Shown here piece by piece: positions 3,434-64,000 of a stretch of 64,000 nt of DNA (position 1 is its first letter; every line of letters starts with the position of its first letter). The stretch comes from Lachnospiraceae bacterium (GTDB lineage: Bacteria; Bacillota; Clostridia; Lachnospirales; Lachnospiraceae), in the NCBI GenBank assembly GCA_017470985.1, contig JAFUXA010000013.1, positions 45,581 to 109,580 on the forward strand, given 5' to 3'. Both the position numbers and the translations under genes were made by a program. Under the pieces are notes generated by a model. That model was not told the DNA's origin, made no database searches, and saw only the letters and a program-made list of their open reading frames with translations.

Positions 3434-4531
3434 ATGAGTAAAAAAATTACAACGGTATGCGGAGATATTGAGCCGAAAGATTTGGGAGTGACTTCGCTAC
3501 ATGAGCACACCTATTTGGATATGAGTATTTCCAGAGAGTTTATGAAAAGATATTTTCCTGATATACCAAAGGAAAAATTGGCATTTCGTCCAGAAAATTA
3601 TACTTTTTTAAAGTCAGGAACTTATCTCATGTCTAATGATTTGGCAGAAGTTGACGACGAAGAATTTTTGATTAAGGAATACACCTATTTCAAAGAGGCA
3701 GGTGGAAAATCTGTTTGTGATTGCTCACCATGTGGAAGTGGAGGAGATATCAATAGAATTGTTTCGCTATCAAAAAAATTGGATTTGAATATTATATGTG
3801 CCACTGGAATTTATACCTTGACTTCCCGTCCGCCGGAACTATTGGGAAAAGACGATGCATTCTATTACAATTATTTTAAAAATGAAGTGAATAATGGAAG
3901 AGACGGAACAGATATTCGCCCGGGTATGTTAAAATGTGCCATCGCGACTATGGATGCAAACGGAATCATGGATGGAGAACTGGCCGGGGTAAGAGCCTGT
4001 GGAAAATTATCCGGTGAAACAGGACTTTCTGTTCATATTCATACAGATCCTAACATCCCCGGAGAACTTGTAGTAGAAACAGCAAAACTGGCAATCTCTT
4101 CAGGTGCCGAACCGGATAAAGTACATATTTGCCACATGGATAATCGGTTGTGTGCAGATGTACCGGTGGCATCTTATCTGACGGATAAAAACCTGGCTAG
4201 AAATGTGAGCGTAGAGACGCAAAAACAGCTGCTGGATTTGGGGGTTACTATCGGGTTTGATACTTTTGGAATGCCACTGACAAATGATAATTATTTTGTG
4301 ACAGAGGACATTGATCGCTTAAAAGCACTTCTTATTTTACTGGATGAGGGTTATGAAAATCAGATTACAGTTGGATGTGATTTTTCAAATAAGCTTTTGG
4401 GAAGAAGTTATGGAAGTCACGGAGTGGCAAGAAGTTTGGAATATCTTATCCCTATGTTAAAAAAATATAACAAAGAATCCGCAATTCAAAAGATTTTTGT
4501 AGAGAATCCGGCGAGAATTTTGGCATATTAA
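3434..4531 (+). CDS. phosphotriesterase-family metal-dependent hydrolase
   Basis: A 365-residue TIM-barrel amidohydrolase-superfamily protein of the PTE/lactonase group. The binuclear metal ligands can be traced: HEH (His23, His25), a bridging-lysine candidate in GMLKCA (Lys167), histidines in VHIHTDP and VHICHMDN, and Asp316 in VGCDFS. Members hydrolyse phosphotriesters, lactones or carboxyl esters; the physiological substrate here cannot be read from sequence. GGAGG precedes the ATG. Two bases after its stop an in-frame ATG opens the symporter region, so esterase, hydrolase and transporter probably form one uptake and degradation unit. A 73-bp stretch of this gene (4169-4241) is duplicated at 8421-8493. 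Confidence 0.85.
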   Translation: MSKKITTVCGDIEPKDLGVTSLHEHTYLDMSISREFMKRYFPDIPKEKLAFRPENYTFLKSGTYLMSNDLAEVDDEEFLIKEYTYFKEAGGKSVCDCSPCGSGGDINRIVSLSKKLDLNIICATGIYTLTSRPPELLGKDDAFYYNYFKNEVNNGRDGTDIRPGMLKCAIATMDANGIMDGELAGVRACGKLSGETGLSVHIHTDPNIPGELVVETAKLAISSGAEPDKVHICHMDNRLCADVPVASYLTDKNLARNVSVETQKQLLDLGVTIGFDTFGMPLTNDNYFVTEDIDRLKALLILLDEGYENQITVGCDFSNKLLGRSYGSHGVARSLEYLIPMLKKYNKESAIQKIFVENPARILAY

Positions 4532-4565
4532 AATGAAATATAAATGGAGAAGAAAGAGGCATAAA

Positions 4566-6011
4566 ATGGAAAATAATAAAATTATTTATAAACGCGCGAA
4601 AATGTCACATATTGCTTTTTCGCAATTATTTGGTGCTGCATCTATGTGTTTTTACATGCTGATGACATATGCTACATATATTGGTAATGTTAATTATGGA
4701 ATAATAGTTGCTGTTACAGGAGTAATTATTACAGTATCCAGATTATTTGACGGAATTACAGACCCTTTAGTTGCGTTTATCATTGAGAGATTTGATTCTA
4801 AATTTGGTAAAGTACGAATATTTTTATTTTTTGGGTGGGGTATCATGGCTTGTGCTACTACATTAATGTGTAATATAGGGCCGGGACATTTGAACGGTAT
4901 CCTGGGATTGATTTTCTTTGTTGTGTGCTACGCTATTTACATAATCGGATACACTTGTATGGGTATTGCCGGAGCGATTACCGGAAATATTATGACGAAT
5001 GATCCACGCCAGCGTCCTACTATCTCGGTTTTTGGAACAATTTATTCTTATCTTGCACCCATGCTGATTTCTATCATTTCTATGGTTGTGCTCTTACCCA
5101 AATATGACAATCAGGTGGGACAGGGATTCTTAGCAGAATTTAATTTGGTTGCAATTGTAATGGCGTTCATATTTTGTCTCTTTGCCTGCCTTGGAATTAC
5201 ACCTTATGATAAACCGGAAAACTTCCGGGGGAATGTGGAAAAAGAAAAAAATGATAAAACTTCGTTTCGAGATATTGTAGCGCTTATCCGTGATAACAAG
5301 GAGTTACAGAGATATATGTGGGCCGCCGTTTCAGATAAATTGGCACAGACTGTAGGCTCCGTATCAGTTGTTTCTGTGATGCTTTTTGGTATTATGATTG
5401 GAAATTACAGTATTTCCACTATTCTTTCCACAGTGGCCATATTACCTGGCATTATTTTCGCCATAATTGGTGCCAAGCTGGCAGGAAAGAACGGCAATAA
5501 AAAGACTATGGTGGATTGGACTTGGGTATGTCTGTTCCTGAATATCTTATATGGTCTGTTTTTACTGTTTACCGATACTACAAAGATTACGGTTGCGTTG
5601 ATTCCATCCATTATATTTTTTGTTTTTACGTTTGGAAACAACGCCGTGAAAATGGTGGTGTCTACAGCAACAAATGCTTATCGAATGGATGTAGTGGATT
5701 ATGAGTGCTATCGTTCCGGTAATTTCATGCCTGCAACGGTTTCAGCAGCGTATAGTTTTGTGGATAAGTTGGTGTCTTCCCTCGGAGCCACCATTGCAAC
5801 AGGAATGATTGCACTGATTGGATATACGGACACTGTACCTCAAAATGGGGACCCTCTGACAATGGGGGTAAAGATAATGACGGTTCTTTTGTTATGTGGC
5901 TTCCCGATTCTAGGTTGGGTGATTACTCTGATTGCTTTGAAAAACAGTGAACTTTCTAAAGAAAAGATGGAAGAAGTGCAGAGAACCATTAAAGAGCGTC
6001 AGACAAAATAA
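4566..6011 (+). CDS. GPH-family (MelB-like) sugar:cation symporter
   Basis: A polytopic membrane protein of about 12 helices, 481 aa, in the glycoside-pentoside-hexuronide:cation symporter family. Typical elements are the N-terminal FDGITDPLVAFIIERFDSKFG segment (family pattern D.ltDP..G...D...s..G) and the mid-protein DPRQRP loop. I place the start at ATG 4566, behind AGAGG, rather than at the ATG at 4533. The gene is coupled to the upstream metallohydrolase and ends just before a strong terminator. It probably imports the oligosaccharide or glycoside handled by the GH3 enzyme downstream. Substrate not assignable. Confidence 0.88.
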   Translation: MENNKIIYKRAKMSHIAFSQLFGAASMCFYMLMTYATYIGNVNYGIIVAVTGVIITVSRLFDGITDPLVAFIIERFDSKFGKVRIFLFFGWGIMACATTLMCNIGPGHLNGILGLIFFVVCYAIYIIGYTCMGIAGAITGNIMTNDPRQRPTISVFGTIYSYLAPMLISIISMVVLLPKYDNQVGQGFLAEFNLVAIVMAFIFCLFACLGITPYDKPENFRGNVEKEKNDKTSFRDIVALIRDNKELQRYMWAAVSDKLAQTVGSVSVVSVMLFGIMIGNYSISTILSTVAILPGIIFAIIGAKLAGKNGNKKTMVDWTWVCLFLNILYGLFLLFTDTTKITVALIPSIIFFVFTFGNNAVKMVVSTATNAYRMDVVDYECYRSGNFMPATVSAAYSFVDKLVSSLGATIATGMIALIGYTDTVPQNGDPLTMGVKIMTVLLLCGFPILGWVITLIALKNSELSKEKMEEVQRTIKERQTK

Positions 6012-6118: not shown

Positions 6119-8341
6119 TTGTTATATAAAATTATTAAAAAACAGGGTTATATATTATATATAAATAAAAATGGAAAGAAAATATCATCTGCAAATGGCA
6201 AAATCATAGAGCAGGATGGAGCTGTGTTTAGAGATTTAGAAGGAGATGGGATTTTATATCCGTATGAAGATTGGAGAAATTCTTATGAGGATAGAGCAAA
6301 AAATTTAGTTGATAGAATGTCTGTGGATGAGATGATTGGCCTGACTCTTCATACGACATCTCAACCGGTTCCTGCTATGCCTGGTCAGATGGAAAACGTC
6401 GGGACTTATGGAGGTTTAAATTATTTGGAAACCAAAGAAATTAAACCAAGCAGCTTGACAGATCAACAAAAAAGTTTTATTGAACAAGATGGTATCCGGC
6501 ATATATTGGTATCAAATTATGAGAATATAGATACTATGGTGGAATGGGTAAATAATTTGCAAGCGAAAGCAGAATCAAATCATCATGGCATACCTGTTAA
6601 TCTATCAAGCGATCCACGACACGGTGCAGATGGGGATAGAGTTGAATTTAGAAATGTATCTCGTGACGTATCCAGATGGCCAGAGGGTCTGGGAATGGCA
6701 TCAGTTTTTGATAATGATATAGCTTATGACTATGCAAAAACAGTGGCCAAAGAGTATCGGGCTTTGGGCATAACGACTGCTTTGGGACCGCAGATTGACT
6801 TTGGATCAGATCCAAGGTGGTTTCGAATACAGGATACGTATGGTATGGATGTGGATTGGGTTACGCAACTTGCTCAGACCATTTGTGATGGATTACAGAC
6901 AACAGATGGAGAATCTGACGGTTGGGGGGAAGAAAGTGTAATTGCAATGTGTAAGCATTGGCCGGGAGGAGGAACAGGCGAAGGTGGAAGGGATGCTCAT
7001 TACCCTTTCGGAAAATATGCAGTATATCCGGGGGATAATTTTAAGACGCATTTGAGACCTTTCACTGAAGGAGCATTCAAATTGAAGAATGGAACGAAAA
7101 CGGCTGCTGCGGTGATGCCTTACTATAATGTGCCATGGAATCAGGATAAAAAATATGGTGAAAATGTCGGAAACGCATATAATAAATACATTATAAAAGA
7201 TTTGTTGATTGAGAAGTATGGATATGAAGGCGTTATTTGTACAGACTGGGGAATTACTAAGGATATGACACCGCATGTGGGTATGTACGTTATGGGTGGT
7301 AAAAGTCACGGTGTTGAAGGAATAACACAGCCACAACGTATATTGAAGTTGATGGATAATGGTGTAAATCAATTTGGTGGATTGGATGATAGAAAAGTTG
7401 TTGATGAGGCTTATAAGCTGGGAGTGGGGAAATATGGTTCAGACTATATGAATAATCTGCTATATATATCAGCATATAAGTTAATTTTAAATATGATGAG
7501 GTTAGGTCTGTTTGATAATCCATTTATCGACATTGCAAAGGCTAAAAAAATATTTGGTTCAAATAAAAATAGAAAAAAGGGCATTGAGGCACAGAGAAAA
7601 TCTCCTGTTCTTTTGAAAAATAAGAATGATGTGTTACCTATAAAAACATTTTATGAAAAAGTAAAGGTATATATACCTGTGCGACATGTAGATTCTTATT
7701 ATGGATTTGTTAGAATGAAATCTAAAGCCATGGATATGAATCCTGTAGATGATAAAGTAGTAAACAGATATTTTAGAAGAATAGAAAATCCCGATGATGC
7801 AGATGTTGCGATTGTTTTTATTGATTCCCCCAGAGGAAGAAATGGATATGAGTATGATATGATGAAAGAAGAAGAGCAGAAAGATGCCGGATATTATCCG
7901 ATTAGCCTGCAATACAGACCATATACCGCTAAGTACGCGAGAGAGGTAAGCATTGCCGGAGGTGACCCGCGCGAGATGAATTCTAATCGCAGTTATAAGG
8001 ATAGAACTGAAGTTACAGCCAATGAGATGGACTTGGATTTAATTTTAAATACGAGAAAAGTTATGGGTGACAAGCCCGTGATAGTGGTATTGAGGGTAGA
8101 ACGCCCTACTGTAGTGGCTGAATTTGAAAAGTATGCAGATGCAATTATAGTTGATTTTGGCATTGATAAAGAAGTGTTGTTTGAACTAATTACCGGAAAA
8201 TATCCTATATGCGGTAAACTACCAATAATAATGCCTGAATCAATGGAAACCGTGGAAATACATTGTGAAGACAGAGTAGATGATATGAAGGCTTATATAG
8301 ATGAATGTAAGCATGAATACAAGTTGCATTTTGGGTTATAA
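6119..8341 (+). CDS. divergent glycoside hydrolase family 3 protein (beta-glucosidase-like), UUG start
   Basis: A 740-residue cytoplasmic GH3 enzyme with the (alpha/beta)8 domain first (about residues 60-430) and the alpha/beta sandwich domain after. The nucleophile is probably Asp376 in VICTDWG; RHGADGD and CKHWPGGG resemble the family's substrate-binding and KHFPGHG motifs. The frame is open from a GTG at 6056, but that codon lies in the terminator stem. TTG at 6119, with AGGAGA 7 bases upstream, is the convincing start. The first 55 or so residues are lysine- and tyrosine-rich and lie outside the GH3 fold. It may cleave glycosides imported by the preceding symporter. Xylosidase or glucosidase activity cannot be told apart. 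Confidence 0.85.
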   Translation: MLYKIIKKQGYILYINKNGKKISSANGKIIEQDGAVFRDLEGDGILYPYEDWRNSYEDRAKNLVDRMSVDEMIGLTLHTTSQPVPAMPGQMENVGTYGGLNYLETKEIKPSSLTDQQKSFIEQDGIRHILVSNYENIDTMVEWVNNLQAKAESNHHGIPVNLSSDPRHGADGDRVEFRNVSRDVSRWPEGLGMASVFDNDIAYDYAKTVAKEYRALGITTALGPQIDFGSDPRWFRIQDTYGMDVDWVTQLAQTICDGLQTTDGESDGWGEESVIAMCKHWPGGGTGEGGRDAHYPFGKYAVYPGDNFKTHLRPFTEGAFKLKNGTKTAAAVMPYYNVPWNQDKKYGENVGNAYNKYIIKDLLIEKYGYEGVICTDWGITKDMTPHVGMYVMGGKSHGVEGITQPQRILKLMDNGVNQFGGLDDRKVVDEAYKLGVGKYGSDYMNNLLYISAYKLILNMMRLGLFDNPFIDIAKAKKIFGSNKNRKKGIEAQRKSPVLLKNKNDVLPIKTFYEKVKVYIPVRHVDSYYGFVRMKSKAMDMNPVDDKVVNRYFRRIENPDDADVAIVFIDSPRGRNGYEYDMMKEEEQKDAGYYPISLQYRPYTAKYAREVSIAGGDPREMNSNRSYKDRTEVTANEMDLDLILNTRKVMGDKPVIVVLRVERPTVVAEFEKYADAIIVDFGIDKEVLFELITGKYPICGKLPIIMPESMETVEIHCEDRVDDMKAYIDECKHEYKLHFGL

Positions 8342-12233: not shown

Positions 12234-14252
12234 ATGCGCCAAATTATTAATATAAATAACAATTGGAAATTTCAATTACATGGCCAGTCTGAGCAAGATG
12301 TGAACATACCACATACTTGGAACAATGTAGATGGTCAGGATGGTGGTAATGATTATTTAAGAACTGTTGCCACTTATTCCAAGAACTTTGAGACTCCGGC
12401 TCATACAGATTCAGAGGATGTATTTCTGGAGTTTAATGGAGTTAATTCAGAATGTCAGATTTTTTTAAATGGCAGCAAGCTATATGAGCATGCTGGAGGA
12501 TATTCTACATTTAGAGTAAATATTACAGAACATTTAACAGAAGAAAATCACTTGGAAGTGGTGGTAGACAACAGACCAAATGACAGAGTTTACCCACAGA
12601 AAGCTGACTTTACTTTCTATGGAGGCATCTACAGAGATGTGAATCTTCTTGTGGTAAGCAAGCATAGATTTGATATAGAATACTTTGGCGGTAGCGGTGT
12701 GGAAATAAGTGCCAAACCACAGAATAATTACAGAGATGCTGTGGTAAATATCAAAACCTGGAAGAATACATCTACTGCCACTACTATGATTACAATCTAT
12801 GATATGGAGGGCAATGTAATTCCATATCAGGCCGTGATTGTAGAAGAAGATACATGTAGTAGTACTTCTTACAGTGGGGATGAAATACTTAATTATTATG
12901 AGAATTTGGAAATCGAATTAATAGATATTCATCTGTGGGATGGAGTGAAGAATCCTTATTTATATACAGCTGAGATTGCTCTTATAGATAATGATGTAAC
13001 AGTAGATGAAGTCAAAGTGAGATTTGGAATCAGAGATTTTCATTATGATGCCAGAAGCGGTTTCTATCTCAATGGCAAATCATATCCACTCCATGGTGTA
13101 TCAAGGCATCAGGACAGGAAAGATATTGGAAATGCCATTACAGATGAGATGCATCTAGAAGATATGAATCTGATTTGTGAGATTGGAGCTAATACAATTC
13201 GTTTGGCTCATTATCAGCACAGTCAGTTTTTCTATGATTTGTGCGATGAGCGAGGAATGATAGTGTGGGCTGAGATACCTTATATCTCAGAGCATATGCC
13301 TCATGGCAGAGCAAATACAATCACTCAGATGAAGGAGTTGATCGTACAGAATTACAATCATCCATCTATTGTCTGTTGGGGGGTGTCAAATGAGATTACC
13401 ATTTCAACCAGGAATAAGAAGGATATGTTAGATAATCATCATTATCTCAATGATTTATGTCATGAAATGGATTCTACCAGATTCACCACTCTGGCTTGTT
13501 ATGCAATGTGTGGTCCGTTTAATCCGGTTGCACACATTACGGATACGGTTAGTTGGAATCTATATTTGGGATGGTATGTGCCGGGATTGTTTTTAAATGA
13601 TTTGTGGATGAGATTCTTCCACCTGGTATATCCAAACAGAGCATTGGGCTATTCGGAATACGGCTGCGAAGGTATGCCGAATCTGCACAGTGAACATCCT
13701 CGCAGAGGAGATCATACAGAGGAATATCAGGCCAGATATCATGAGTATATGCTTAGATGCTTTGAGAGAAATCCATATCTCTGGGCTACTCATGTATGGA
13801 ACATGTACGACTTTGCTGCAGATGCCAGAAATCAGGGTGGAGAGCCCGGCATGAATCACAAGGGGCTGGTGACATTTGACAGAAAAACCAAGAAAGACAG
13901 CTTCTATGTGTACAAGGCATGGTGGAGTGATGAGCCATTTGTTCATATAGCTTCTAAGCGCTTTGTTGACAGAACCAGAAACAGAATTACTATCAAGGTT
14001 TATTCAAATCAAAATGAAGTGAGTCTGTATAAAGATGGCATACTTCTAGAAACCAAGACAGGTCAGCATGTGTTTGAATTCAAGGTAAAACTTGATGAAA
14101 CTGGTGATGAGCCACATGCAGATCATATTTTCCGGGCTGTAAGCGGCAAATTGGTTGACGAGGCAATCTATCGCAGAGTAGATAAGCCAAACAGAGAATA
14201 TAAGCTCAAGGACGTAGGCGATAAGGGCGCCAACTGGGCTGATACTAATTAA
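12234..14252 (+). CDS. glycoside hydrolase family 2 (beta-galactosidase/beta-glucuronidase-like)
   Basis: A 672-residue cytoplasmic enzyme with the GH2 layout: sugar-binding jelly roll (residues 1-150), immunoglobulin-like domain (about 160-265) and TIM barrel (about 270-570). A short beta-rich tail follows. Acid/base Glu387 is in WGVSNEI and the nucleophile is Glu475 in GYSEYG; NTIRLAHYQH is the usual barrel motif. Specificity (galactosidase, glucuronidase, mannosidase or xylan-linked sugars) cannot be fixed. AGGAG lies 7 bases before the ATG but is buried in the leader hairpin. Fourteen bases separate it from the GPH symporter, so the two are co-transcribed. Confidence 0.92.
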   Translation: MRQIININNNWKFQLHGQSEQDVNIPHTWNNVDGQDGGNDYLRTVATYSKNFETPAHTDSEDVFLEFNGVNSECQIFLNGSKLYEHAGGYSTFRVNITEHLTEENHLEVVVDNRPNDRVYPQKADFTFYGGIYRDVNLLVVSKHRFDIEYFGGSGVEISAKPQNNYRDAVVNIKTWKNTSTATTMITIYDMEGNVIPYQAVIVEEDTCSSTSYSGDEILNYYENLEIELIDIHLWDGVKNPYLYTAEIALIDNDVTVDEVKVRFGIRDFHYDARSGFYLNGKSYPLHGVSRHQDRKDIGNAITDEMHLEDMNLICEIGANTIRLAHYQHSQFFYDLCDERGMIVWAEIPYISEHMPHGRANTITQMKELIVQNYNHPSIVCWGVSNEITISTRNKKDMLDNHHYLNDLCHEMDSTRFTTLACYAMCGPFNPVAHITDTVSWNLYLGWYVPGLFLNDLWMRFFHLVYPNRALGYSEYGCEGMPNLHSEHPRRGDHTEEYQARYHEYMLRCFERNPYLWATHVWNMYDFAADARNQGGEPGMNHKGLVTFDRKTKKDSFYVYKAWWSDEPFVHIASKRFVDRTRNRITIKVYSNQNEVSLYKDGILLETKTGQHVFEFKVKLDETGDEPHADHIFRAVSGKLVDEAIYRRVDKPNREYKLKDVGDKGANWADTN

Positions 14253-59081: not shown

Positions 59082-59088
59082 TTGCGTT

Positions 59089-59117
59089 CAGTCATGTATT
59101 AGCATGACTGATTTTTT
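59089..59117 (+). terminator. Rho-independent terminator after the HAD gene
   Basis: CAGTCATG (59089-59096) pairs with CATGACTG (59103-59110) around a 6-base loop, followed by ATTTTTT. Confidence 0.92.
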
Positions 59118-59123
59118 CTAAGG

Positions 59124-59206
59124 CCATTAAAATGATGGTAAAAATTATGTTTTAAACCATTATTTTAATGGTTTTTCTTTACAATTAGTTGATTTGATGG
59201 TTAAAT
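59124..59206 (+). promoter_or_regulatory. paired palindromic operators and promoter of the Hip-like module
   Basis: Two 15-bp palindromes, CCATTA-AAA-TGATGG (59124-59138) and CCATTA-TTT-TAATGG (59157-59171), have centres 33 bp apart, about three helical turns. Just downstream is -35 TTTACA (59178-59183), 17 bases, -10 TTAAAT (59201-59206). The layout matches cooperative autorepression by the HTH antitoxin. Confidence 0.75.
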
Positions 59207-59224
59207 AAAAGAGAGGTGATTGCT

Positions 59225-59770
59225 ATGATAGAGAAGTTAGCTGTTCCCAAATATACAACGGCGCAAGAAATAAAACATGTTAGAAAAATGCTTGGGATGA
59301 CACAAAAGGATTTTGCGGTACTTACTGGTTATTCTAAGCCAAGCATAGAACGACTAGAAACAGCGGATAAGCCTGTTACTGGACCAATTGTATTACTGGT
59401 GAAGATGCTTATGGAAAATCCTAGTTATGTAGAATCACTTACAATTCCAAAACAGGAGTACCCGAAAAGAATGTGGTACATGTATAAGGATAAAATATGC
59501 ACTCTGATTGATGTAGATGATAGACGCCAGAAAGTGTCAATAAAGAATTTTGTAGTCAATAATCAGTTTAAGGCATTTGGTGTAATAGAAAATCCAAGTT
59601 ATGCGGATTATTTGTCTTTTATTGAATCGAGATGCTTCCCTAGAACGAGAAACTATATGAAGATAATGTTAGAATCTCAAGATATACCATATTACGACCC
59701 AATGTTAATTATTAAGAAAACAAACGGTCGTATGGCAGAGGATGATTTTTGGATAAAGTTTGAGGAATAA
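59225..59770 (+). CDS. HTH antitoxin with fused HipA-N-like domain (Hip-like module)
   Basis: A 181-residue protein. Residues 12-65 form an XRE HTH (TAQEIKHVRKMLGMTQKDFAVLTGYSKPSIERLE). Residues 83-181 form a second domain with the strings FKAFGVIENPSYADYLSFIE, RCFPRTR and GRMAEDDFWIKF. As I know the family, such strings occur in the N-terminal part of HipA-like proteins or in companion subunits. Here that part is joined to the antitoxin. ATG 59225 follows AGGTGA; a GTG at 59216 also reads in frame. The kinase gene starts 4 bases after the stop. Probable DNA-binding antitoxin acting on the operators at 59124-59171. Confidence 0.82.
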   Translation: MIEKLAVPKYTTAQEIKHVRKMLGMTQKDFAVLTGYSKPSIERLETADKPVTGPIVLLVKMLMENPSYVESLTIPKQEYPKRMWYMYKDKICTLIDVDDRRQKVSIKNFVVNNQFKAFGVIENPSYADYLSFIESRCFPRTRNYMKIMLESQDIPYYDPMLIIKKTNGRMAEDDFWIKFEE

Positions 59771-59774
59771 AACT

Positions 59775-60587
59775 ATGGTTGAACTTACATCAAAAGAGAT
59801 GAAATACTTGGATAGAACATCGTCAAAAGGAAATCAATTTAAATGGAAGCAAAGTGGTATATGGTATAAGGCTGATTATGCTGGATATGAGGGGCTGGCA
59901 GAATACATGGTATCACATTTGCTTCAGTTGTCTGATATGGATGATGATGAATATATTTTATATAATCCGGTTCAGATTAAATATAAGAACAGAGAATTTT
60001 GTGGGGCTTGTAGTAATGATTTTATAGAAAATGACTGGCAAATTATTACGTTAGAGCGTCTTTTCCTTCAGATACATGGAATGAGTTTTTATGAATCAAT
60101 ATGGAAAATCCGAGATGTAGAAGAACGATTAAGATATATGGTGGATCAGGTAGAAGAAATAACTTCAATAAAGGATTTTGGAAAATATATTTCAAAGCTG
60201 ATGACTATTGATGCAGTATTCTTGAATGAAGATAGACATCTGCATAATGTGGCGGTATTGATGAATGGACAAGGAGAGTACAAATTATGTCCAATTTTTG
60301 ATAATGGAGCATGTCTGCTTTCAGATACTACAATAGATTATCCACTTGATATAGATGTGTTTAATTTGCTTGGAGAGGCTCATAGTAAGACAATAAGTCG
60401 AGATTTCGATGAACAATTAGATGTAGCGGAAAAACTATATGGAGAGAATCTTAAGTTTAGCTTTACAAAAAAAGATGTAAAGAAACTTTTGGAAAAACAA
60501 GAACTTTATTCCAAGGAAATATGTGATAGAGTAGAGACAATTATTTATCAGTCTATGCGAAAATATCCGTATTTATTTAAAGTGTAG
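59775..60587 (+). CDS. compact HipA/CtkA-like Ser/Thr kinase (putative toxin)
   Basis: A 270-residue kinase. IWYKADYAGYEGLAEYMVSHLL (residues 29-50) supplies the ATP lysine (Lys32) and pairing glutamate. DAVFLNEDRHLHNVAV (146-161) is the HipA-type catalytic loop (Asp153, His155, Asn158), and PIFDNGACLL (173-182) carries the metal aspartate Asp176. It lacks the ~100-residue N-terminal subdomain of HipA (about 440 aa), matching the fusion of that piece to the antitoxin. HipA kinases phosphorylate aminoacyl-tRNA synthetases; the target here is unknown. ATG 59775 follows GAGGAA, overlapping the antitoxin's end. Confidence 0.83.
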   Translation: MVELTSKEMKYLDRTSSKGNQFKWKQSGIWYKADYAGYEGLAEYMVSHLLQLSDMDDDEYILYNPVQIKYKNREFCGACSNDFIENDWQIITLERLFLQIHGMSFYESIWKIRDVEERLRYMVDQVEEITSIKDFGKYISKLMTIDAVFLNEDRHLHNVAVLMNGQGEYKLCPIFDNGACLLSDTTIDYPLDIDVFNLLGEAHSKTISRDFDEQLDVAEKLYGENLKFSFTKKDVKKLLEKQELYSKEICDRVETIIYQSMRKYPYLFKV

Positions 60588-60747
60588 AGGGGAAAGAAGA
60601 TAAAGCATAAAGATTAAACTATTAGTTTATTGATTCTTATGGGTGTTTATGATATTCTGATTTAACGCTATATAGGGAGATGGCGTGATTACAGGAATAA
60701 CTAGTGTCAAGTAGAGTGTTCGGGAGTGCAATCTAGGAGGTATGAAT

Positions 60748-61029
60748 ATGGAATATCCAGTAATCAATATGGAAGCAACTGGTGCTAGAATTAAGTTGCT
60801 GAGACTAGAAAGAAATATTAGCGTGGCTCAAATTGCCAGTTTCATGGGTGATGTTTCAGAACAGGCAATTTATAAATGGCAACGAGGACAGACCTTGCCA
60901 ACCGTTGACAATTTATTTGCATTGAGCAGATTATTTGAGACATCCATGGATAATATAATTGTAGAGTATGAAGAGGACGAGAAATCGTCCTCTTTTTCTA
61001 ACTATACCTTTATTTCATTTTCAAGTTAA
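60748..61029 (+). CDS. XRE-family transcriptional regulator, CDS reading through a terminator
   Basis: A 93-residue protein with an XRE HTH (about residues 8-65; GARIKLLRLERNISVAQIASFMGDVSEQAIYKWQRG) followed by an acidic stretch and a serine-rich tail. ATG 60748 lies 7 bases after AGGAGG; an ATG at 60742 is too close. The acidic stretch EEDEKSSSF is encoded by a perfect terminator hairpin with its T tract. The last ~18 residues may therefore be translated only from read-through transcripts. Target unknown. Confidence 0.85.
   Translation: MEYPVINMEATGARIKLLRLERNISVAQIASFMGDVSEQAIYKWQRGQTLPTVDNLFALSRLFETSMDNIIVEYEEDEKSSSFSNYTFISFSS
60973..60997 (+). terminator. intragenic Rho-independent terminator
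   Basis: GAGGACGA (60973-60980), GAAA loop, TCGTCCTC (60985-60992), T5 (60993-60997). It lies 32 bases before the stop codon of the XRE gene. Confidence 0.9.
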
Positions 61030-61067
61030 ACTACAGGTTCATTGTGCTGCTCAACTCGTTGAGATAT

Positions 61068-61073
61068 TATAAT
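61068..61073 (+). promoter_or_regulatory. -10 box of the candidate structured RNA
   Basis: TATAAT at 61068-61073. The best -35 is weak (TTGTGC at 61042, 20-base spacing). The imperfect palindrome CTCAAC-TC-GTTGAG (61050-61063) lies between them and could be an operator. Confidence 0.4.
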
Positions 61074-61076
61074 CAT

Positions 61077-61675
61077 GCAAGATAAATCTTGCGAACAACA
61101 AAATATTGCACTTAGCAAATTAATATCCTAGTGTAGATGCAAGACCATGCAGCTAGGACGCACTGCATTAAAAGGATAAGCAAGGCGGATACGACTTGTG
61201 AGAGCCTACTTGATATTGGTAACAATGTCATGAGAGAAGCGAATGCTTCAAATTCTGGGTGTGGTGCATTTGCTATCGGTAGAGCAAAGGTAGAACAAAC
61301 TACTACCTGTCGCAATTGACGCTCCGGTGGAGAATAATCCTTGAATACTATGAAGCTGATTACTTAGTAGGATCCTGAGGAAATATCATAAAAGGCAGGT
61401 AAAGCGGGTGGCCAATTGAGAAATCAATTGGTAGAAAAGTAGAAGTTTGTCTGAGTAGCCAAACGCTTTCAAATTCAAATAAGAAGAAACAGTATTGTCT
61501 CTTTTTGAGACATTCCTTATGGTAATGTGAATGGTTGGTGAAAAGTGGAGGTATCATTCCTCTGAGTGCTTGTAAGCTTATGCTTTAGGGTCTATAGCGG
61601 TAGTCGACGGGCTGCTTGCTCACGTAGATCTTCATTCTGACTGAATATGCTCGAGATAGTAAGTGTAAAGGGAAG
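61077..61675 (+). ncRNA. candidate large structured non-coding RNA (about 600 nt)
   Basis: About 650 bases between 61030 and 61719 have no credible gene but many short strong hairpins on one strand: GCAAGA/TCTTGC (61077-61092), TCCTAG/CTAGGA (61126-61158), GAAGC/GCTTC (61236-61249), TTTGCT/AGCAAA (61269-61288) and GGTAG/CTACC (61289-61307). Others are an 8-bp stem closed by a GAAA tetraloop (61412-61431) and TGTCTC/GAGACA (61496-61512). Size, density and GNRA loop recall the large ornate RNAs of Firmicutes and phages (ROOL, GOLLD, OLE), of which ROOL is nearest in length. I cannot confirm a family. Ends are approximate; no U-tract terminator is seen. Confidence 0.55.
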
Positions 61676-61719
61676 CCTTATTAGTTTGTTAAGTGCAGTA
61701 TTTTGATTTGGGAAAATAT

Positions 61720-62007
61720 TTATACCGCTATTTTCCATAAGGTCTGCTTGATATCATAATATAGTCGGATAGAGCGAGTCTGACCAAATACTATTATTTT
61801 GCATTCGAATACCAGTGTATTATTGCAGACAGAAATTCCATCGGGAGTTGTGTGGGTTCCGGTCCTGGGCAGCTCTCGATATTCTTTTATGGTAAATATT
61901 TGATAGACGCCATCTTCATCAGTTACCCGAATTCGCATGGGTATAATCTCGCCGTCTTTTGTATGCTGACAAATTACATCTATGGTTTTTGGTGACATTT
62001 TCCCCAT
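61720..62007 (-). CDS. SOS-regulated small protein of unknown function
   Basis: A 95-residue beta-rich protein (IPMRIRVTDEDGVYQIFTIK, LVFECKIIVFGQTRSIRLYY). From general knowledge, similar small genes stand beside Y-family DNA polymerase genes in Lachnospiraceae. No polymerase gene follows here; the downstream DNA is the RNA candidate on the other strand. AGGAG precedes the ATG. The promoter has a perfect LexA box between -35 and -10, so it should be induced by DNA damage. Function unknown. Confidence 0.82.
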   Translation of the reverse strand: MGKMSPKTIDVICQHTKDGEIIPMRIRVTDEDGVYQIFTIKEYRELPRTGTHTTPDGISVCNNTLVFECKIIVFGQTRSIRLYYDIKQTLWKIAV

Positions 62008-62042: not shown

Positions 62043-62071
62043 ATTATAGAACATATGTTCGATTTTGTAAA
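62043..62071 (-). promoter_or_regulatory. LexA-controlled promoter (SOS box in the spacer)
   Basis: On the minus strand: -35 TTTACA (62071-62066), 17-base spacer, -10 TATAAT (62048-62043). The spacer contains GAACATATGTTC (62049-62060), a perfect palindrome matching the Gram-positive LexA/DinR site. Confidence 0.85.
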
Positions 62072-63830: not shown

Positions 63831-63858
63831 AAGTAGGAAGTAATTCCTACTTTTTTTT
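63831..63858 (+). terminator. Rho-independent terminator used as intron landing site
   Basis: AAGTAGGAA (63831-63839), GTAA loop, TTCCTACTT (63844-63852), with T8 spanning 63851-63858. The group II intron starts 6 bases after the T tract. Confidence 0.93.
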
Positions 63859-63864
63859 GTACTT

Positions 63865-64000
63865 GTGCGCCTAGCGGCGCACGTTTCTAACGGGTTAAAG
63901 TCCCGAATCCGCCCGGTAGTGGGAAGGATATAGCCGAAGGCAAGGGTGTCCATCGCGAGGTGGAATCTGAAGGAAGCTGGATGTGGGGAACATACTAACC
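63865..64000 (+). mobile_element. 5' end of a group IIC intron (cut by the window edge)
   Basis: Starts with GTGCGCC, the canonical group II 5' boundary. Domain I motifs closely parallel the Oceanobacillus iheyensis IIC intron: AGTCCCGAA, then CGAAGGCAAGGGTGTCC and GTGGAATCTGAAGGAAGC. Placement just after a terminator hairpin is the known target rule of class IIC introns. The reverse transcriptase/maturase gene and 3' end lie beyond the window. Confidence 0.88.

Follow-up and report, generated by a model that had tools for sequence, protein, structure and literature searches.

What is encoded in a hairpin-dense stretch of several hundred bases that holds no credible gene for a protein on either strand? 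Such a stretch had been delimited at 61030-61719 of the window, by which the whole 64,000 nucleotides of Lachnospiraceae DNA analysed here are meant, and the original prediction had seen in it a large structured non-coding RNA, either ROOL-like or of a new class. Searching the window with the Rfam covariance models (cmscan) identified 61103-61698 on the plus strand as the gene for a full-length ROOL RNA (RF03087), matched end to end (model positions 1-574 of 574) with 257.3 bits and an E-value of 1.5e-57, far above the gathering score of 99.1 bits, which bears out the guess of a ROOL-like RNA. It is the sole match at gathering score in the window, and its 257.3 bits compare with 215-404 bits for 18 full-length ROOL matches in fetched genome loci; for GOLLD (RF02032), nothing at gathering score was found within the window. 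Long ORFs are absent from the ROOL gene, the longest wholly inside it reaching 60 aa on the plus strand and 67 aa on the minus strand.

The RNA body is probably somewhat longer than the model match and extends from 61100 to 61704 on the plus strand, where an outer stem of 61100-61114 with 61690-61704 can be read by eye as 15 pairs including one G-U, mismatch-free only if G-U is allowed. The limits drawn earlier therefore contain the RNA but also include promoter and flank. The identification as a ROOL gene, with an RNA of approximately 605 nt, is near certain, and the wider explanation of a full-length ROOL gene with its own transcription and, by analogy, a cage-forming product is considered highly probable. 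The kind of RNA is already known; the copy is new, a divergent and apparently chromosomal ROOL.

The genomic setting is unusual for this RNA family. ROOL is usually, although not by definition, found on phages, prophages or plasmids, often near tRNAs, with at least one tRNA within 5 kb in 29 of 46 ROOL clusters as far as the fetched sequence reaches. This is not the setting of the window, which contains no tRNA; phage structural genes are absent from the 10 ORFs flanking ROOL, and the contig, as read from its metabolic genes, is apparently chromosomal. At the contig end, 63860-64000 resembles the 5' portion of a group II intron, with a weak Rfam match at 63949-64000 (24.7 bits against a threshold of 32); several contigs of the window's genome share a segment of approximately 45 bases at 63854-63900. 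The ROOL is the sole one found in this genome, and among 150 genomes of the family a match was obtained in two, the window's own and G027.

A comparison with a congeneric species (G001) is most informative about the origin of the gene. Genome G002 breaks off at a contig end and is uninformative as to presence or absence. G001 keeps the XRE gene next to the ROOL site (97% identity over 421 bases, followed by 77 bases of its own) and is then identical to the window at 80 of 80 bases (61013-61092), including a TATAAT and the palindrome GCAAGATAAATCTTGC at 61077-61092, with the last base of which the BLAST homology stops. Seven bases later the 3' flank follows from 61713 with 94% identity over 2050 bases; by eye it resumes near 61707, so that approximately 61093-61707 is missing. 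Both limits of the absent segment coincide with the RNA body, which supports the assigned RNA ends. ROOL is hence present in the window's species and absent at the same site from its congener. A further segment, 59082-60592, is missing from G001 as a separate gap; it includes a pair (59216-60587) of another XRE gene and a weakly HipA-like partner, which matches the candidate defence family PDC-M03A. Since the promoter-like sequence survives in G001 without the RNA, ROOL has likelier been lost there than gained here, as judged from one pair of draft genomes.

On the other hand, ROOL might have been gained by insertion beside an existing promoter-like element, the RNA body being a small mobile cassette. 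This alternative is the strongest of those considered, but we hold it to be unlikely. It fits with the coincidence of the present or absent segment with the RNA ends and with the occurrence of AAAATATT at both edges (61100-61107 and 61713-61720). However, these repeats do not give the junction found in G001, and excision through them was rejected for the same misfit. The flanking ORFs that were checked include no integrase, and the closest ORF of transposase type (PF12784, 57494-58330) lies approximately 2.8 kb off. Furthermore, the TATAAT and palindrome remaining in G001 without the RNA, as well as a similar inverted repeat upstream of other ROOLs (a motif chosen after looking at the sequences), fit better with loss.

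If loss in the congener is the preferred reading, is the copy in the window itself still intact? Relatives for comparison were collected with one DNA pattern derived from a conserved ROOL segment, which led to 25 genome loci and 47 viral contigs. ROOL was identified by cmscan in 18 of the 18 genome loci submitted, with 18 full-length matches in 17 loci and one locus (L019) cut off, and in 16 of 17 further loci, the exception being L036. A profile search gave 74 ROOL copies in 72 loci, and a threshold of 92% identity groups them into 46 clusters; the 72 do not include L004 and L005, which cover the same place on a Coprococcus catus contig as L017. In a tree of the 42 longer copies, with four of the 46 clusters left out as too short, the window's ROOL reaches no more than 51% identity with any of the 41 others, has the second longest end branch (0.95) and is without a well-supported sister. 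A blastn search of phages and plasmids gave no match to it.

Folding of the plus strand yields -210.1 kcal/mol (z -4.88), a value that none of 20 shuffles attains; a stable fold is likewise obtained for the minus strand (z -3.10, again none of 20 shuffles as good), and the strand assignment consequently rests on the covariance model. In the window's ROOL, 133 of the 159 model pairs are standard, 22 non-standard and four gapped. The hairpin with an 8-bp stem and a GAAA tetraloop noticed earlier is present at 61412-61431 on the plus strand, where it falls on one of the stems of the ROOL model. Compensatory base changes were assessed in an alignment of 25 sequences, the window and 24 relatives picked from the 74 copies for full length and leaning to those most alike, onto which the Rfam structure was projected through the window's row. 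Strong compensatory change in the stems of the ROOL model is displayed by the relatives: the covariation score is 0.343 compared with 0.160 after shuffling and at most 0.168 when the structure is slid by 1-3 columns, 62.4% of cells are paired compared with 51.2%, and in 117 of 155 pairs both sides change. Not one of 500 shuffles reaches the observed value for any of five measures. For several helices pairing is seen in less than 40% of cells, the alignment not having been adjusted to the structure.

These data bear on the possibility that the gene is a decaying ROOL pseudogene left behind by a lost prophage or plasmid, its structure a relic without a functional RNA. The long branch and the 22 of 159 non-standard pairs might be read in this way, as might the lack of tRNAs in the window and of phage structural genes in the flank and the congener without the RNA. 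Yet the ROOL is full length and untruncated with 133 of 159 model pairs standard, and the promoter region is identical over 80 bases between the two species, which makes a pseudogene improbable. Partial decay may nevertheless have occurred, considering the non-standard pairs, the long branch and the best identity of 51%. The other half of the original prediction, a new RNA class merely resembling ROOL, has virtually no probability left, as its low identity to the other ROOLs of the tree, 51% at best among 41, is outweighed by the end-to-end RF03087 match of 257.3 bits and the shared covarying pairs.

How might a ROOL gene that apparently lies on a chromosome be expressed? The TATAAT at 61068-61073 on the plus strand, located within the stretch identical in G001, is a candidate -10 element of a ROOL promoter. 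The sequence is present as previously reported; the promoter scan, on the other hand, lists no plus-strand promoter there and a matching -35 element at 16-18 nt is absent. Shortly downstream is the palindrome GCAAGATAAATCTTGC (61077-61092, plus strand), which has 7-bp arms around an AA centre, is the sole exact match to GCAAGATNNATCTTGC in the window and folds as a hairpin; situated at the expected transcription start, it might serve as an operator or a leader hairpin. An inverted repeat, TTAAAC-N5-GTTCAT, at 61026-61042 on the plus strand resembles repeats upstream of three ROOLs without nearby tRNAs (L015, L017 and L021); the p value of 0.02 for the window does not constitute a test, because the motif was chosen after looking at the sequences.

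Upstream of these elements, a small gene for an XRE-family DNA-binding protein of 95 aa (60742-61029, plus strand) was confirmed by an HTH_3 match of 2.5e-10, its ORF ending about 73-74 bases before the RNA. A terminator-like hairpin followed by T residues can be folded at 60972-60993 on the plus strand in the 3' end of this gene, although the terminator scan does not list it; it suggests that ROOL is a separate transcription unit. Relatives of the XRE protein (E-value at most 0.01) occur in seven ROOL loci, the window, L013, L015, L018, L020, L021 and L032, which amount to six of 46 clusters, in counts that treat all loci alike even though XRE genes are probably more frequent in phage loci. 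The gene lies directly upstream on the same strand in three of 46 clusters: in the window, L015 and L021, the distance to the RNA is 77, 81 and 86 bases from the end of the BLAST match and 74, 15 and 71 bases from the end of the ORF, respectively. As L015 and L021 are sisters in the tree, this layout represents two lineages and not three. XRE genes of this type are also common, with at least one in 29 of 41 genomes, own included, so that the association with ROOL is only a lead, and putative control of ROOL by the XRE protein is put forward tentatively, at somewhat less than even chances.

The meaning previously given to the neighbours, an XRE gene on one side and a LexA-controlled gene on the other, has to be divided accordingly: XRE genes recur beside some other ROOLs, whereas the LexA-box gene is without a link to ROOL. 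This gene, a 95-aa ORF on the minus strand (61720-62007) convergent with the RNA and outside the ROOL unit, belongs to no assigned family and gave no match in Pfam, PHROG or PADLOC under the limits applied. In front of it, a LexA-type box, GAACATATGTTC, is located at 62049-62060. In accordance with the earlier assignment, GAACNNNNGTTC is found upstream of all six examined copies of the ORF, own included, and the family is probably SOS-controlled, judging from the box. The gene is present in six of 61 genomes, own included. However, a search of 74 loci found it next to no ROOL but that of the window, and it occurs in relatives without a ROOL match (G001, G002, G011 and G013), which makes its position incidental; a LexA or SOS link to ROOL was rejected on these grounds.

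The RNA can be compared with several known systems. The env-120 ROOL has been described as a cage built from RNA alone, an octamer that encloses a disordered linker (PMC12286853). Cages without protein are known for a very small number of natural RNAs, ROOL among them, and for ROOL no function is described (PMC12286853). GOLLD, equally a large cage-forming RNA, belongs to phages and prophages and frequently lies close to tRNA islands (PMC12286853). A long non-coding RNA of the Lactobacillus salivarius megaplasmid, which is cited as a ROOL (PMC12286853), rivals 16S rRNA in amount and can be deleted, upon which the ratio of megaplasmid to chromosome falls from 1.61 to 1.16; the helix-turn-helix gene LSL_1884 adjoins it downstream (PMC5643018).

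With env-120 as representative of RF03087, the window's RNA shares its length, the order of stems, the segment CAATxGACGC...GAATAATCC, the GAAA hairpin and the long variable loop, which the projected structure places at 61464-61533 on the plus strand with a small hairpin (61496-61512) inside. It differs in being divergent (at most 51% identity), isolated, apparently chromosomal and without tRNAs in the window. The likeness to the L. salivarius RNA, as drawn from published descriptions, consists of membership in the same family according to the literature and of a helix-turn-helix gene alongside; this gene lies downstream and the RNA on a megaplasmid in L. salivarius, whereas in the window it lies upstream and the contig looks chromosomal. 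The copy in the window is of interest because no tRNA island was seen around it, because a candidate regulator lies next to it, and because it is cleanly present or absent between congeneric species.

A plausible course of events begins with the arrival of ROOL by a phage or plasmid, speculatively, and its subsequent retention on the chromosome. The RNA would form its own transcription unit, with the TATAAT at 61068 as promoter element and with the neighbouring XRE protein possibly acting on the repeats at the promoter. It would then fold alone, and, as modelled on env-120, eight copies might close into a hollow cage around the loop 61464-61533, which is likely the counterpart of the disordered linker. 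Because of the homology to the cage-forming env-120 ROOL, the formation of a cage by the window's RNA is to be expected with good probability; accessory storage or sequestration might be guessed as its role.

An alternative aspect of expression is seen in the leaders of other ROOLs, many of which carry a boxA like that of rRNA leaders, for example GAACCTTGAAAATTCAAT, just before the first stem. The window's copy differs from them, its own leader being without boxA (best score -3.7, shuffle p 0.67), and no boxA was found in the leaders of L015, L017 and L021 either. The appearance of a clostridial boxA is taken from the rRNA leaders themselves, the profile being the pre-16S leader element of seven genomes, with the register picked by eye; three of these genomes (G027, G175 and G177) also carry ROOL. 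Among the 20 rRNA loci, L131 (genome G048) is without a recognised start and the two loci of G171 are without a clear boxA, and neither genome is in the profile. A 16S rRNA for leader comparison was not found in G000-G002, the genomes of the window's genus.

In 43 leaders, three of the 46 clusters with less than 40 nt upstream being left out, a boxA score of at least 12 was reached by 11, of at least 10 by 15 and of at least 8 by 17, compared with 0.24%, 0.44% and 0.91%, respectively, of 3392 control windows, which were drawn from the same loci and may overlap each other. The 17 leaders are those of L048, L075, L030 (both), L035, L025, L062, L055, L024 (both), L008, L057, L029, L043, L034, L059 and L038, and in 12 of them boxA starts 17 bases before the estimated RNA start. 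Those present in the tree fall into three groups, with 11 of the 17 in one group, and are therefore far from 17 independent events. The motif CTTTGANAA, seen in ROOL leaders before it was counted, matches with at least 7 of 8 letters in 19 of 43 leaders compared with a shuffle mean of 1.5 (largest 6).

When 410 kb of representative loci were scanned on both strands at a score of at least 11, 31 places emerged: 14 directly before ROOL, one (near 757 in L069) before a tmRNA-like start recognised by eye, and 16 at other sites, of which three are in the window well away from its ROOL. Six of seven checked tmRNA places (L027, L043, L051, L040, L056 and L023) have an element of this kind, CTTTGACAATT or a close variant, 20 bases before the RNA; these six derive from two ROOL clusters only and lie in tRNA islands, and five of them score 6.7, which is under the cut-off of 8, with 10.3 for the remaining one. 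The seventh tmRNA (L025, start set by hand) is without a boxA-like element, as is the one GOLLD fetched.

In rRNA antitermination, boxA binds NusB and NusE according to the literature. A firmicute boxA consensus was not found in PMC10250234. A report of boxA before ROOL, GOLLD or phage tmRNA was not found in the full-text literature searched, and the one paper found to name both antitermination and ROOL mentions ROOL, as far as seen, as a size comparison only. At even chances, phages might set a host-type boxA, the NusB/S10 signal, before ROOL and perhaps tmRNA, whereby transcription would become rRNA-like, early termination would be escaped and rRNA-like abundance would be possible, while some chromosomal lineages, including that of the window, would instead use an XRE gene and a repeat-rich promoter. 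The boxA leaders offer a testable account of how ROOL-type RNAs could be made in rRNA-like amounts.

Several of the fetched loci show further features. ROOL genes are doubled in tandem in L024 and L030, and the viral contig L039 holds both ROOL (7558-8229) and GOLLD (12269-12780; 152.8 bits, threshold 150). Directly downstream of ROOL, L024 (5116-5436) and L030 (1338-1646) encode a small protein whose start is rich in cysteine and which carries the C-terminal domain of ribosomal L7/L12 (PF00542); an ORF in the same position in L035 (1992-2477) has a similar start and no Pfam match. In L026, ROOL is followed on the same strand, after 37 bp, by a gene for an RtcB RNA ligase (4033-5241).
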